IMG/VR virus record: IMGVR_UViG_3300023099_000013
Span: 1-41,448 of that record
Length of the DNA: 41,448 nucleotides
Strand: one strand, 5' to 3'
Origin: a virus
Position 1 is the first letter of the stretch, and each line of letters begins with the position of its first letter. A program made the translations under genes and the position numbers. Positions 4,428 through 40,292 of this stretch are shown here, one piece after another. The notes beneath the pieces are model-generated. The model was not told the origin of the DNA. It worked only from the letters and a program-made list of their open reading frames with translations, and searched no databases.

Positions 4428-4640
4428 TCAAGTTCCTACTATTTTTAAGCAGGATTCCTTTTTACACTCTAGTGAATATTCTTCTATATAACCTTCCCCA
4501 TAATACATATTCACTTGTTTAAATTCTTTACAGCCACAAGAGCATTTTAAAGGCATACCATCTTCTGAAATATAACCATCTTGTACCTGCATAGCCATAT
4601 AATCTTCAAATGATATAATATCTTTATTATTTTTTTCCAT
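4428..4640 (-). CDS. Small zinc-ribbon-like protein
   Basis: 70 aa from the ATG at 4640 (MEKNNKDIISF). A longer reading from 4682 would place the start inside the leader RNA and is rejected. Four Cys positions, CSCGC then CKKESC near the C-terminus, suggest a small zinc ribbon. No enzyme motif is visible. It is the first gene of unit K and lies 12 nt after the leader pseudoknot described at 4652-4704, so its translation is the most likely direct target of that RNA. Confidence 0.65.
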   Translation of the reverse strand: MEKNNKDIISFEDYMAMQVQDGYISEDGMPLKCSCGCKEFKQVNMYYGEGYIEEYSLECKKESCLKIVGT

Positions 4641-4651
4641 AATATAAAAAA

Positions 4652-4704
4652 TAATGCCCCCACTCGCTACAAATGAAGGCATTAATAAATTTTAGTTGTA
4701 GCGA
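4652..4704 (-). ncRNA. Leader pseudoknot 1 (unit K)
   Basis: RNA from the minus strand. Arm A (4704-4696, UUCGCUACA region) pairs with A' (4672-4664): on the plus strand TTGTAGCGA and TCGCTACAA, 9 perfect pairs. Arm B (4684-4678, UAAUGCC) pairs with B' (4658-4652, GGCAUUA), 7 pairs plus a flanking U.G. The order is A-B-A'-B', so the helices cross. It ends 12 nt before the ATG at 4640 and begins directly after the -7 box TACATTTG (4709-4716). It is closely similar in sequence and layout to leader 2. Confidence 0.65.
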
Positions 4705-4708
4705 ATTA

Positions 4709-4716
4709 CAAATGTA
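4709..4716 (-). promoter_or_regulatory. Promoter -7 box (TACATTTG) of unit K, inside a direct repeat
   Basis: Minus strand TACATTTG matches TAnnTTTG. It sits within one of two direct repeats of AATTCRCTACA (copies about 17 bp apart); the second copy is arm A of the pseudoknot. The -33 region has no good TTTG. Transcription would begin at the 5' end of the pseudoknot. Confidence 0.5.
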
Positions 4717-6393: not shown

Positions 6394-6508
6394 GTGTTTT
6401 AGGGCGTGTTCCGATGAGTTCCAACTCTACTTTTAACAAGATTTCATTAGCTTGTTTCATAGCTTCGATTTGTTCTTCAGTAGGTTCTACTTCTTGCAAA
6501 ATTTTCAT
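6386..6508 (-). CDS. 40-aa protein at the head of the lysis operon
   Basis: From the ATG at 6508 it reads MKILQEVEPTEEQIEAMKQA and ends GTRPKTRG with TAG overlapping the next gene by 8 nt. The main part is one amphipathic helix. An ATG at 6568 in frame is less likely because it would translate the probable promoter region. Function unknown. Confidence 0.55.
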   Translation of the reverse strand: MKILQEVEPTEEQIEAMKQANEILLKVELELIGTRPKTRG

Positions 6509-6581
6509 TTTATTATTTATTTTTAAGTTTAGGTGTAAAAGTAATGAAATTATTTTATATGTTTGCAATGTAATTATGATC

Positions 6582-6659
6582 GTGGGGAAAATTAATTACA
6601 AGTAAAATTTAGTTTAAACCCTTTGATTTCAGAACCCCACTTCTGTTTTCAAGGGGTTT
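6582..6659 (+). ncRNA. Leader pseudoknot 5 (plus-strand unit L)
   Basis: Arm A (GTGGGG, 6582-6587) pairs with A' (CCCCAC, 6635-6640). Arm B (AAACCCTTTG, 6616-6625) pairs with B' (CAAGGGGTTT, 6650-6659), 10 pairs with one G.U. A' is exactly the 6-nt loop of an inner hairpin CAGAA/TTCTG (6630-6634/6641-6645), so the transcript's 5' end would kiss the loop of a long hairpin. It ends 21 nt before the ATG at 6681. The -7 box is weak (TAATTATG, 6571-6578). The B/B' hairpin followed by TTTT could also be an attenuator. Confidence 0.55.
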
Positions 6660-6680
6660 TATAATTTAAGACAATTATAT

Positions 6681-7178
6681 ATGGAATTAACTGCTAAAGA
6701 AAAAAAAGCTGAATATGATCGTATTTATAGAATTAAGAATTTAGAAAAAATAAATGCCAACAAAAAAGCTTATAATGAATCTCAAGCAGGAAGATTGATG
6801 CAAAAAAAATCTAGAGAGAAAAGAGGACAGGAAAAGCAAAATGAATATTGCAAAAAACCTGATCAAAGGCAAAAGGAAAGGATTAGGCGTTATAAAATAA
6901 ATGGAACTTTAGGTATTTTAAAATTCTGCATAGTTTGTGAATCAAATAAGCCTATTTTAGAATTTAGAGGATCAAGAATTTATGAAGACAGAAGATACCA
7001 TCTTTGCTTAAGTTGTGAATCAACACACAAAAAAGAACTTGGAGTTACTACGAAAGGAATTATTCAGGCTATTGTCACAAGATGTAATTACCGACTTACA
7101 AGGCAAGACGTTGCAAAACACCCTTATTTTATAGAAGCAAATAAATATTTAATCACTTTAAAAAAGTTAGTACAATGA
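6681..7178 (+). CDS. Basic zinc-finger protein, possible DNA-binding or nuclease-like
   Basis: 165 aa. The N-terminal half is highly basic and helical (KKAEYDRIYRIKNLEKINANKKAYN, KERIRRYKING). Two CxxC knuckles follow, CIVC (about 83-86) and CLSC (about 109-112), flanking RGSRIYEDRRYH. This spacing resembles the zinc site of phage endonuclease VII/HNH-like proteins, but the catalytic His-Asn set is not evident. It is the first gene of the only plus-strand unit and lies behind leader pseudoknot 5. It overlaps the next gene by 4 nt. Confidence 0.7.
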   Translation: MELTAKEKKAEYDRIYRIKNLEKINANKKAYNESQAGRLMQKKSREKRGQEKQNEYCKKPDQRQKERIRRYKINGTLGILKFCIVCESNKPILEFRGSRIYEDRRYHLCLSCESTHKKELGVTTKGIIQAIVTRCNYRLTRQDVAKHPYFIEANKYLITLKKLVQ

Positions 7179-7369
7179 AAAATGTTAAAGAATTACGTGA
7201 CGCTTTAGTAGATGTTTTCGAAAAGGTAAAAAGTGGAGACATGGACACTACACAAGGAAAAACATTAGTAGCCACAAGTAATGCAATGCTTAAGTCAGCT
7301 CAATTAGAACTAGAGCATTCTAAAATGATTGGGAAGTCAAAAGAAATTAAATTTCTTAAAACCGAGTAA
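7175..7369 (+). CDS. Small helical protein, unknown function
   Basis: 64 aa, entirely helical with pattern MKNVKELRDALVDVFEKVKSGD, then a second helix KTLVATSNAMLKSAQLELEHSKM. I recall similar small proteins in flavobacterial phages, but no function. The start overlaps the stop of the zinc-finger gene (ATGA), so the two are probably co-translated partners. Confidence 0.7.
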   Translation: MKNVKELRDALVDVFEKVKSGDMDTTQGKTLVATSNAMLKSAQLELEHSKMIGKSKEIKFLKTE

Positions 7370-7414: not shown

Positions 7415-7681
7415 ATGAAATACATTTGTATAGTTTGTATAATTATTTCTTTTTATAGCTGTAAAAAAACAGAACTAAAAAATTCACAAGAATTAATTAC
7501 TAATGGAAGTTTTCAGTTAGAATTTCTTTTTGAGCAAAACGGATGCAAAATGTATCGTTTTGAAGATAATGGAAGATTTATTTATTGGACTGACTGTCAA
7601 GGTAAGATACAATCTGATTATGAGAGAAACAATGGAAAACACAGAAAATATTATAAAGAAGAAACAATAACAACTGAATAA
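7415..7681 (+). CDS. Small lipoprotein, DUF4884-like
   Basis: 88 aa. Lipoprotein signal: MKYICIVCIIISFYSC with Cys16 followed by KK. The mature part has the pattern FQLEFLFEQNGCKMYRFEDNGRFIYWTDCQG, which resembles the DUF4884 family found in Bacteroidota genomes and phages (assignment from memory). Two Cys in the mature domain may form a disulfide. It is the last gene of the plus-strand unit and ends at a strong terminator. A role at the host surface, for example superinfection exclusion, is only a possibility. Confidence 0.65.
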   Translation: MKYICIVCIIISFYSCKKTELKNSQELITNGSFQLEFLFEQNGCKMYRFEDNGRFIYWTDCQGKIQSDYERNNGKHRKYYKEETITTE

Positions 7682-36464: not shown

Positions 36465-36534
36465 AATTCCCTCCCATGCTTACCGCCAAGTAAAAGCAAA
36501 GAAAGGAATTAAGTTAATTTTTAAATCTTGGCGG
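36465..36534 (-). ncRNA. Leader pseudoknot 3 (unit C)
   Basis: RNA from the minus strand. Arm A (36534-36527, CCGCCAAG) pairs perfectly with A' (36490-36483, CUUGGCGG). Arm B (36510-36505, AAUUCC) pairs with B' (36470-36465, GGAAUU), plus a flanking U.G. The helices cross. It lies between NinG and the DUF7768 gene; a -7-like TACATTTA (36550-36543) precedes it. The ATG follows 8 nt after B'. Confidence 0.65.
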
Positions 36535-36557
36535 ATTTTGTGTAAATGTAATAAATT

Positions 36558-37706: not shown

Positions 37707-39509
37707 TTAAAATGGTATTTGTTCTTCTTCGTTATATTGCTCTCCAAAGGCGTCTGATGCTGTTAATTTAGGTAATTCTTTTTTTTCTTCTGCTTGTTTA
37801 ATTTCATCATCAATTATGCAGTAAGTTGGCGGCTGTGTTCCAAATTCATAATAACGCCCACTTGGAAGATGATATTCAAATTCTTGAGAACCTCCTATTT
37901 CTCCTTGGAATTTCATTTTAGTTTTTAAATTTTCGAACACAGTCTTAGCTTCGCTTTCCTCATTTCCAAAATAACGATAAATACTAAATCCGTCATGTGT
38001 TTGATTTCTAAAATCAGAACTTCCTGAAACATCGTAAAGCGTTGGCGATGTATAAAATCCATCAGAACCTTTTTGCATTTTAGTGGGATGCGCAACTAAA
38101 AATATAATTACGTTGTTCATCTGTGCAAACATGGTAAGCTTTGTAAGGACTTCATTTATCTGGTCAAGCTTATTGCCTTTTCCATCAAAACCCAATTTAT
38201 TAAAAGCATCGATTACAAAAATATCAATTCCATAGCTGAACATCTGTTCCCTAAACTTTTCAAAAAGCCAATTCCAAGTAGGAAATTCCCCGTTTTCAGT
38301 TCCAGTAAGGTAAATTTTTTCTTCAGCCCATTCTTTATATCGTGAAATATCTTCTTTCGAAATTCTAGGGCAATCAGCATTATCATAAAAGAAATTTTTA
38401 CCGAAAACCTTTTCAATAAAGGTCGTGTGATGCAATTCAAAAGGATGGTGTTCGGGACTGAAAAAAGAAGCTTTCATTTTGTAGTCCCTTATCAAATTCA
38501 AAACATACCATTCCGTAAAATTTGATTTACCGTGAGAAGGAATTCCTGTTCCTGTAATCAAATGACCACGCATTACAGAAAAAACCTTTTTTAAATTTCC
38601 AAAACAATGATGCTTTGGATAAATAGTTTCCGGAATTCCGTTTTCATATAGGCTTAATATTCCATCGTAACAGTCAGAAACTTTAAAAGTTCCGCTAACA
38701 GGATATTTTTGAGTTTTATAAGCGGTTTTATCCAGTATTCCACTTATCAAATCATCATTAGCATCTTTACCTTCAAATAAAATTCTTTCGCACCTGTAAC
38801 GCCCTAAACGCTGCACAATCTTTTCAGCTACTTCATTTCCTTTTTCGTCATTGTCTGTTGCTATAAAGAATTTTTTAATGTCCTTGATATATTTTTCAGA
38901 ATTAACCCAATAGTTATCATTGTCGTTTGCACCGTTTGGAACAGAAATAACATTTTTTATTCCGATTTCATAAAAAGCAAGTACGTCAAACTCTCCTTCA
39001 ACTATGTAGCATTCGTCTTGACCTATTACTGAATTTATATTGTAGAAAATAGACTTTGCATTTTTGCTTTGGGTAAATGATTTTCCTTTTCCACGATATT
39101 TTTTATTTACAACAGTATCGCCTTCGAAATAATTGAAAACCAAATTCTGGACTTCCTTTGATATTTTTGGCTGATAAAATGATTCTTGCGTAATTCCTAA
39201 ATTTATTAATGTGCTTTGGCTTATTTTTCTATTTTCGCAAGCTTTCACAAATTCATCTGATATTTGCGTATAGTTTTTCCAATTCTGAATAGGCAAAGTA
39301 TATTCTGTTTTTTCAATAGACTTTTCTATACTGTCTTTAAAAAATAATCCTTCGCAATGAAAACACTTTCCAACTCCTGAATTAAAATTAACGTAAAGAG
39401 GTCTGTCTGTTTTATTTTTCCTTTCGTCCGTACAAATCGGACATTTTAATTTAGCCGTACCTGAAACCTTATTCGTTTGAATTAAATTCCAATCATGTAT
39501 TTTTTTCAT
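37707..39509 (-). CDS. Bifunctional primase-helicase
   Basis: 600 aa, T7 gp4-like layout. Zinc-binding CPIC (23-26) and CFHC (49-52); TOPRIM with IVEGEFD (169-175, Glu171) and ATDND (217-221); DnaB-type helicase with Walker A GTGIPSHGKS (320-329) and Walker B-like IDIFVIDAFNKLG, then LVAHPTK. It unwinds the fork and makes RNA primers. No DNA polymerase gene is present, so host polymerase is probably used. Overlaps the initiator stop by one base. Confidence 0.93.
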   Translation of the reverse strand: MKKIHDWNLIQTNKVSGTAKLKCPICTDERKNKTDRPLYVNFNSGVGKCFHCEGLFFKDSIEKSIEKTEYTLPIQNWKNYTQISDEFVKACENRKISQSTLINLGITQESFYQPKISKEVQNLVFNYFEGDTVVNKKYRGKGKSFTQSKNAKSIFYNINSVIGQDECYIVEGEFDVLAFYEIGIKNVISVPNGANDNDNYWVNSEKYIKDIKKFFIATDNDEKGNEVAEKIVQRLGRYRCERILFEGKDANDDLISGILDKTAYKTQKYPVSGTFKVSDCYDGILSLYENGIPETIYPKHHCFGNLKKVFSVMRGHLITGTGIPSHGKSNFTEWYVLNLIRDYKMKASFFSPEHHPFELHHTTFIEKVFGKNFFYDNADCPRISKEDISRYKEWAEEKIYLTGTENGEFPTWNWLFEKFREQMFSYGIDIFVIDAFNKLGFDGKGNKLDQINEVLTKLTMFAQMNNVIIFLVAHPTKMQKGSDGFYTSPTLYDVSGSSDFRNQTHDGFSIYRYFGNEESEAKTVFENLKTKMKFQGEIGGSQEFEYHLPSGRYYEFGTQPPTYCIIDDEIKQAEEKKELPKLTASDAFGEQYNEEEQIPF

Positions 39510-40159
39510 CAGAATCTACTTTTATCTCCGTGAGCAGGATTACGTTTTTGTTCAGGTATTTTTTCGATATAAGGCATTGTCTGAAGTAGTTTTGATTTCC
39601 AATTTTTAATTACCTTGTCATTTCCATCTTTCCAATCGTTAGCTAACCAAGCATCATATTTATTTTTTAAAGCCGATTGTTTTACTGTTTTTTCTTTTTC
39701 TAAAGCATAAATTAAAAATTCTGAAAATTCTGGTATATTAGTTTCTTTGTTATTTGTTTTATTGTATATTGGTTTATCTATACTATCAATGCTTCGTTCC
39801 GTGCTTTCACTTTGCTTTGTTCCGTGCTTTATAAATGCTTTGTCAAGTGCTTTATCAAGTGCTTTATCATAATTTAATAAAGCAACTATATTGCTTGAGT
39901 GTTGATTTTTTGATTTTTCAATCATTTCAATAAAACCAAAATCAACTAAATCGGATAAAGTTTTTATGTATGTATTATAGCTTCTAATGCCAATGGCTTC
40001 TTTTGCCATTGTAGTAGGAAGTCCAAATTTTGATTTCCAACCAAGACGGTTGCAATGCTCAACGGTAAAGGAATAAAGAGCGCAATGAGTAGGTTTAATT
40101 TTTTCTGGATTCTCGAAAGCAAAATCCCAAAAGTTACGCATAAGTACAAAGTAATCCAT
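39509..40159 (-). CDS. Replication initiator / winged-helix DNA-binding protein
   Basis: 216 aa. N-terminal 1-105 looks like a winged helix (HCALYSFTVEHCNRLGWKSKFGLPTTMAKEAIGIRSYNTYIKTLSDLVDFGFIEMIEK), then a Lys/Ser-rich linker with DKALDKAL repeat, then a small C-terminal helical domain (FLIYALEKEKTVKQSALKNKYDAWLANDW). This layout and the position before the primase-helicase resemble phage replisome organisers that load the helicase. It follows leader pseudoknot 2. Confidence 0.75.
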   Translation of the reverse strand: MDYFVLMRNFWDFAFENPEKIKPTHCALYSFTVEHCNRLGWKSKFGLPTTMAKEAIGIRSYNTYIKTLSDLVDFGFIEMIEKSKNQHSSNIVALLNYDKALDKALDKAFIKHGTKQSESTERSIDSIDKPIYNKTNNKETNIPEFSEFLIYALEKEKTVKQSALKNKYDAWLANDWKDGNDKVIKNWKSKLLQTMPYIEKIPEQKRNPAHGDKSRF

Positions 40160-40179: not shown

Positions 40180-40256
40180 AAAGTCCCATAAATCCCCCGC
40201 TCACTACTTCAGGTTCATTATAGGACTTTTATAATGTTTTTATGTAATGTAGTGAG
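40180..40256 (-). ncRNA. Leader pseudoknot 2 (replication operon, unit B)
   Basis: RNA from the minus strand. Arm A (40256-40249, CUCACUAC) pairs perfectly with A' (40207-40200, GUAGUGAG). Arm B (40229-40223, AAAGUCC) pairs with B' (40186-40180, GGACUUU), with 4 more pairs after one mismatch. It shares GUAGYGAGYGGGGG with leader 1, with an A-U/G-C compensatory change in stem A. It begins about 6 nt after the -7 box and ends 20 nt before the initiator ATG. Confidence 0.7.
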
Positions 40257-40262
40257 TTACAA

Positions 40263-40292
40263 CAAAAATACGATAATATTTCAAATACACAA
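40263..40292 (-). promoter_or_regulatory. Promoter of the replication operon
   Basis: Minus strand -33 TTG (40292-40290), 19-nt spacer, -7 TATTTTTG (40270-40263), matching TAnnTTTG. Overlaps the last codon region of the upstream gene. Transcription would start at the leader pseudoknot. Confidence 0.65.

Follow-up and report, generated by a model that had tools for sequence, protein, structure and literature searches.

The window, the whole stretch of DNA analysed here (41,448 nucleotides, positions 1 to 41,448 of the IMG/VR virus record IMGVR_UViG_3300023099_000013), carries in front of a plus-strand cassette the hexamer GTGGGG, and its complement CCCCAC further downstream. A first-pass annotation, made from the letters, read the two as a kissing structure between a hairpin loop and the 5' end of the transcript. 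The question that this locus raises is whether the two segments can pair within a leader RNA and, if they do, what such a pairing would be for. The letters are exact: CCCCAC is the full 6-nt loop of the CAGAA/TTCTG hairpin, and the outer stem, AAACCCTTTG(A) with (T)CAAGGGGTTT, is confirmed, at 11 pairs when the A-T pair is counted (Table 1). Within the window the GTGGGG/CCCCAC arrangement is unique, the only other match being the same site on the opposite strand. GTGGGG itself has six copies, both strands summed; it is present in 0.33% of the 50-nt segments of the sequence and in 10 of 20,000 shuffles of 6566-6615. The observation is correct and far above chance, and the site is one member of a large family.

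The picture of GTGGGG as a bare 5' end could not be upheld. The sigma-A box of F. psychrophilum, TAnnTTTG, is placed at -12 to -5 in the part of the report available to us (PMC9723704), and the box TATGTTTG, so placed, puts the predicted +1 at 6570, the first base of a hairpin that we call H1. Its stem has 7 bp (GTAATTA, 6570-6576, with TAATTAC, 6593-6599) and GTGGGG sits in its loop; a fold begun at 6582 cut H1 off. The minimum-energy fold from 6570 yields H1 together with the downstream hairpin, H2. As GTGGGG lies within the H1 loop, its pairing with CCCCAC would be loop to loop, so that the H2 loop does find its partner in the 5' region of the leader, as had been proposed, and only the loop-to-5'-end topology has to be given up. 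By fold prediction the leader at 6570-6659 has two hairpins with complementary loops, as a kissing-loop RNA does; an H-type pseudoknot has a 5' strand that is otherwise single-stranded, and here H1 is present. We regard the element as a predicted intramolecular loop-loop (kissing) leader. The predicted energy of the isolated 6-bp kissing duplex is -10.1 kcal/mol. The fold of 6582-6690 is close in energy to its shuffles (z -1.54, H2 alone modestly better), so the case rests on the kissing pair and on compensation in relatives and not on hairpin energy. The fold from 6570 also contains a weak third hairpin (ATAATT/AATTAT, 6657-6682) right before the start codon at 6681. The first gene has no match in Pfam or PHROGs.

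Table 1. Coordinates of the leader before the plus-strand cassette and of three further leaders of the window.
Feature	Position	Strand	Basis or remark
-7 promoter box TATGTTTG (TAnnTTTG, flavobacterial sigma-A)	6558-6565	+	Sequence, conservation
Hairpin H1, loop 6577-6592	6570-6599	+	Minimum-energy fold; H1 arms above flank shuffles family-wide
Kissing segment GTGGGG, in H1 loop	6582-6587	+	Sequence
Linker, AU-rich	6600-6615	+	Sequence
Hairpin H2, outer stem 6616-6626/6649-6659, inner stem CAGAA 6630-6634/TTCTG 6641-6645	6616-6659	+	Sequence, fold
CCCCAC, H2 apical loop, complement of 6582-6587	6635-6640	+	Sequence
U-rich tail of H2, short and weak (TTTT, then ATAATTT)	6657-6667	+	Sequence
First gene, 165 aa, CxxC motifs	6681-7178	+	Followed by 7175-7369 and 7415-7681
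Second leader, H1-less: box TACATTTG 4716-4709, TCGCTACAA 4704-4696, H2 4684-4652 with loop TTGTAGCGA	4652-4716	-	Ends in a T6 tail, ATG at 4640
Third leader: box TATTTTTG, H1 TGTAA/TTACA, CTCACTAC 40256-40249, H2 40229-40180 with loop GTAGTGAG	40180-40270	-	Precedes 39509-40159
Fourth leader: box TACATTTA, CCGCCAAG 36534-36527, H2 36510-36465 with CTTGGCGG	36465-36550	-	ATG 36456

Positions 6518-6575 of the window are 91-93% identical in two relatives, and the DNA beyond is replaced. The two relatives of the syntenic site are contigs with a 97% identical terminase; both have the same promoter, with a different leader and a different gene behind it. By eye, that leader reads GTAG[TTCACGAC]CTAC, followed by an H2 with a GTCGTGA loop. 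The letters GTGGGG and CCCCAC, whose conservation had been expected, are thus not conserved, since TCACGAC/GTCGTGA stands at the syntenic site, and what is conserved is the pairing: a predicted H1, H2 and kissing pair are all present with other letters. The annotation had also argued that the element is more than the duplicate of a single operon start. This is borne out, as leaders also occur on the minus strand (at 4708, 36542 and 40262) and, in many phages, ahead of unrelated genes. The link that it drew to the zinc-finger cassette fails. In one contig (L001) a gene of 79% identity has no such leader and lies inside a longer co-directional gene run, for which reason we rejected conservation of the leader together with the zinc-finger gene. 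Four more contigs (L002-L005) resemble that gene over ~42 N-terminal residues only, and in the upstream DNA of L002 and L003, which was read, there is no such leader.

How widespread the leader is was assessed with a detector that looks for a promoter box, a hairpin, a T-rich tail and an ATG and does not ask for complementarity. For each leader we then took as k the length of the longest Watson-Crick run that the 32 nt following the box can form with the interior of the hairpin, and compared the counts with those expected from re-pairing leaders and loops. For the window and 20 relative loci (53 raw rows, reduced to 23 and then to 19 non-redundant leaders), k was at least 6 in 15 of 19 leaders against 3.06 expected, and none of 20,000 permutations was as high. 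A wider set of 151 sequences, consisting of the window and loci that partly overlap and of which many are not Bacteroidota phages, gave k of at least 7 in 20 of 57 leaders (reduced from 80 rows) against 2.5 expected, with a maximum of 9 in 2,000 permutations. The phage set (30 sequences, 0.76 Mb) had k of at least 6 in 22 of 27 leaders against 4.5 expected (0 of 2,000 permutations) and k of at least 7 with at least 3 G/C in 16 of 27. The latter was found in none of 25 leaders from 70 AT-matched stretches of Bacteroidota chromosomes (1.38 Mb), not necessarily flavobacterial. These chromosomal controls had k of at least 6 in 7 of 25 against 3.4 expected, and as 76 of 2,000 permutations were as high, we do not find this excess convincing. 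A scan for TTTG..CGCTAC..GTAGCG returned mostly chance matches, with a full box at 15 sites, of which ~4 or 5 look real by eye. Blastn of two window leaders against named phages gave nothing for one and one weak fragment for the other.

Clear leaders are present in 7 of 13 named records scanned whole or in part. The cultured carriers include hattifnatt, snusmum, morran, mumin and others (Flavobacterium sp. LMO6/LMO9), FCL-2, 11b, Cellulophaga phi10:1 and phi19:1 and Olleya Harreka_1. In hattifnatt9-1 there are three leaders, before the helicase, the endonuclease/SSB pair and the primase operon. One doubtful leader each was seen in laban6-1 and Riemerella CRP5, and one further doubtful leader each in hattifnatt and snusmum6-1; none was found in P12024L, in 3 kb of Freya_1, in the first 50 kb of crAss001 or in the first 40 kb of phi13:1. 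Judged from its sequences, the candidate leader family is shared by many relatives of this phage, whose hosts are marine and freshwater bacteria. Comparison bears out the predicted H1, H2 and kissing pair, the promoter position, the U-tract excess and, within the searched set, the restriction to phages.

The primase-operon leader of cultured Flavobacterium phages shows how the pairing is kept. The kissing pair is GTGAGACG/CGTCTCAC in hattifnatt9-1, GTGGAACG/CGTTCCAC in snusmum6-1, snusmum9-1 and mumin6-1, GTGAGAAG/CTTCTCAC in morran9-1 and GTGAGATTT/AAATCTCAC in contig L281. Compensation was counted over five orthologous leaders, with mumin6-1 left out. All 40 cells of the 8 pairs of the kissing helix are paired, and 4 pairs have changed on both sides. 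Over the whole structure 98.7% of the cells are paired, against 33-44% when the alignment is slid by 1-3 columns, and in 500 shuffles neither the fraction of paired cells nor the number of both-sided changes nor the covariation score was ever as high. Further pair types are not raised in these five leaders (397 of 500 shuffles reach the count), and their H1 has one-sided changes only and two unpaired cells. At 40262 of the window and in contig L047, two sites whose gene order suggests orthology with the primase-operon leaders, the polarity is reversed: H2 holds the GTAGTGAG/GTGATGAG half, and the complement of that half is found in the 5' part. The leader of Cellulophaga phi19:1 and phi10:1 reads, by eye, AGTTGC[GTACGAC..]GCGACT, with GTCGTAC in the loop of an H2 formed by TACCCTTATAG/CTATGAGGGTA.

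The leaders fall into two classes. In the larger one the 5' kissing segment lies inside the H1 loop. Over 40 leaders, which were picked by their kissing pair, the H1 arms score 180.1 against 139.3 in flank shuffles (maximum 159.7 of 300), and a strong H1 stem is present in 22 against 9.0 in the shuffles. These 40, together with 6 of the other class, are the 46 left of 150 and then 124 rows; removal of 8 doubtful ones by eye gave the 38 leaders used for tail composition, H1 start and anti-terminator pairing. H1 begins at -1 to +2 from the predicted +1 in 21 of 28 leaders. In the second class, class I, there is no H1 excess (6 leaders). Here (TCGCTACAA/TTGTAGCGA at 4704 of the window) the predicted 5'-terminal nucleotides would themselves pair with the H2 loop: the RNA starts with UCGCUACAA and the loop is UUGUAGCGA, so that by sequence this class has the topology of an H-type pseudoknot, 5' end to loop.

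At least 119 viral contigs match the class I pattern TCGCTACA..TGTAGCGA. Among the 240 strand-wise matches listed, the window included, a box lies within 27 nt upstream in 41, and 40 of these 41 have the whole element by eye; the pattern with a box end was found in 0 of 395 Bacteroidota genomes. The matches listed comprise 36 distinct sites, and in 23 of them the distance from the box to TCGCTACA is exactly 4 nt, which makes the first base of TCGCTACA the predicted +1. Filtering by stem, with a penalty on large internal loops, kept 27 of the 36, and of the other 9, L210 and L366 show H2. In these 27, again from the matches listed, nine positions of H2 are paired in every site, by as many as five pair types, and there is an internal loop at positions 3 and 4 (20 and 19 of 27). 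Two leaders (L387 13307, from hattifnatt9-1, and L390 13657) keep TCGCTACAATTAAAAACAT, the 5' sequence of class I, and their H2 loop pairs with GTCGTCG; from their sequences they look like intermediates between both classes. Three others (L060 30078, L062 37483 and L063 33629) have an H2 internal loop with AGUA opposite GAA(A), which resembles the loop-E/sarcin-ricin motif.

Other leaders of the window add detail. A consensus terminator scan calls the H2 of the second leader. The longest open reading frame behind that leader, 4428-4682 on the minus strand, starts at an ATG inside H2, and the leader anatomy suggests that translation in fact begins with the ATG at 4640, giving 70 aa. A kissing leader before the portal gene (~26440, CCTATGT/ACATAGG) was rejected, as the pair is not kept in relatives, which share another 5' hairpin whose loop is GTGAAGAT; the candidate was left out of the 38 composition leaders and is still among the hits in all three permutation counts. 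This leader (~26450-26360, minus strand; also L007, L011, L012 and L084) has a design of its own, in which by eye a box and a 5' hairpin with a GTGAAGAT-type loop are followed by a terminator-like hairpin with a T-run and then the ATG, with no kissing pair kept among relatives. On the minus strand at 33779-33747, shortly upstream of an ATG, a DUF805b RNA (RF02914) scores above gathering; this described cis-regulatory candidate is here found on a phage.

What the leader might do is suggested by what follows H2. The first 8 nt after H2 are 73% T, counted on those of the 38 leaders whose tail has at least 8 nt. By comparison, the 24 nt upstream of the ATG in 38 plain leaders of the same phages contain 24-33% T and 46-48% A, and the median longest T-run is 5 in kissing leaders versus 2 in plain ones. 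Such a T-rich stretch is the mark of an intrinsic terminator, and with a U-tract usually at the foot of H2, control of transcription past H2 is the most likely role. The attenuator layout of a GC-containing hairpin and a direct U-tract before the first gene is found family-wide; it is weak at 6582, where the tail is TTTTATAATTT and the consensus terminator scan does not call H2. Classical attenuation by alternative pairing was rejected: in the 38 leaders, anti-terminator pairing of the linker or 5' region with either H2 arm is no more frequent than in shuffles. Linker length is not tied to the height of H2 (r = 0.04).

We propose that RNA polymerase starts at the sigma-A promoter and that H1 is formed by the first nucleotides of the transcript, which in the TCGCTACA class would instead remain single-stranded, beginning with +1. 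H2 would form ~10-40 nt later, ending at a median of ~18 nt before the start codon. Its apical loop would find a partner in the H1 loop or in the 5' end itself, and the resulting kissing complex would link H2 to the 5' terminus. The element would then be a terminator-type attenuator whose strength is set by the kissing contact, and replication and recombination operons are among those that it heads. A cis-acting terminator-type leader, with H2 tied to the 5' end by kissing, is the reading we favour, and we put its chances at about even. We infer that H2 terminates, that kissing affects this termination and that the effect can be relieved; the mechanism is probably weakest for the 6582 leader, in which the U-tract is poor.

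Part of this evidence can be read differently, as the U-tract could instead be an RNA-binding site or a ribosome entry region. It is possible, if on the unlikely side, that the structure shields the 5' end, with H1 at +1 or the 5' terminus in the H2 loop stabilising the mRNA and H2 serving as an anchor without termination. H1 starts at the predicted +1 in most leaders, the predicted first nucleotide of class I is itself paired (the 23 of 36 sites with 4-nt spacing, among the matches listed) and the weak tail of the 6582 leader fits, but the U-tract excess directly after H2 is left unexplained, as is the fact that H2 and not another anchor sits just before the ATG. An unlikely role, in our judgement, is that of a translation element in which kissing keeps H2 away from the place where ribosomes would enter, a U-rich and unstructured stretch upstream of the ATG. 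The short distance between H2 and the ATG (median ~18 nt) and the 94% A/T of the last 8 nt before the ATG (leaders with a tail of at least 16 nt) would suit it, and mRNA structure tunes Flavobacterium translation according to the available part of one study (PMC6847099); however, the plain leaders of the same phages have A-rich and not U-rich upstream regions. The attenuator, shield and translation roles could each be partly true.

Readings that need no RNA pairing fare worse. The two copies are inverted repeats just downstream of a promoter, as an inverted operator for a repressor would be, but the sequence differs from one pair to the next, the copies fall exactly within hairpin loops, the H2 arms covary and G-U pairs are frequent (in class I, among the matches listed, U-G at position 0 in 25 of 27 and at position 6 in 10 of 27), which makes a DNA element very improbable. 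That an AT-rich 5' region should match a hairpin loop by mere chance might be suspected from the short pair of the 6582 leader (6 nt); this is scarcely credible, and for the leader family it is refuted by the permutation tests, the compensatory changes and the other pair substituted at the syntenic site.

Beyond the terminator-type leader that we favour, one may speculate, with little confidence, that in flavobacterial phages the operons for replication and recombination are tagged by leaders recognised by shape, for example by a protein of phage or host origin with affinity for loop-loop helices of any sequence. One factor could then free many operons, and private pairs would not cross-pair. 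Judged from the literature searched, RNA-level regulation of Bacteroidota phages is little described, and as cultured phages carry natural compensatory variants of the leader, a direct test is possible. Because the loop letters change freely while the pairing stays, ordinary sequence-profile searches would miss the leader, and similar elements may hide elsewhere. The kept pairing with changing letters points to a widespread candidate RNA switch that is not in the databases searched.

In the open literature searched, we found no description of such a leader. Weinberg et al. 2010 also found phage-borne cis-regulatory RNA candidates (manA, wcaG) by comparison; in the available part of that report, its main text, the word kissing has 0 occurrences, and its Rfam families have no match here (PMC2864571). 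With Rfam 15 the sole match in the whole window is the DUF805b RNA elsewhere, the best E value in 6500-6800 is 0.23, with every hit far below gathering, and L060, L062, L063 and L042 have 0 matches. We would class the leader with the structured cis-acting leader RNAs, as a variant of them that belongs to no Rfam family tested. Attenuators and terminator-type riboswitch leaders have a promoter, a structured leader and a hairpin with a U-tract before the first gene, and the phage leader shares this layout; unlike them, it has no competing anti-terminator pairing and no visible conserved ligand pocket, and its loop letters are free. The purine riboswitch makes an intramolecular loop-loop contact in a 5' leader. 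The phage leader also kisses two loops within one 5' leader, but without a closing P1 helix, a conserved three-way junction core or an Rfam match. In the kissing complexes of plasmid antisense systems, such as ColE1 RNAI and RNAII, loops of ~7 nt are fully paired and the contact controls the output of a gene or replicon. There too two hairpin loops pair and structure outweighs letters, but those systems use two RNAs, whereas the phage leader is one RNA, which has a promoter to itself and whose second hairpin is terminator-like.
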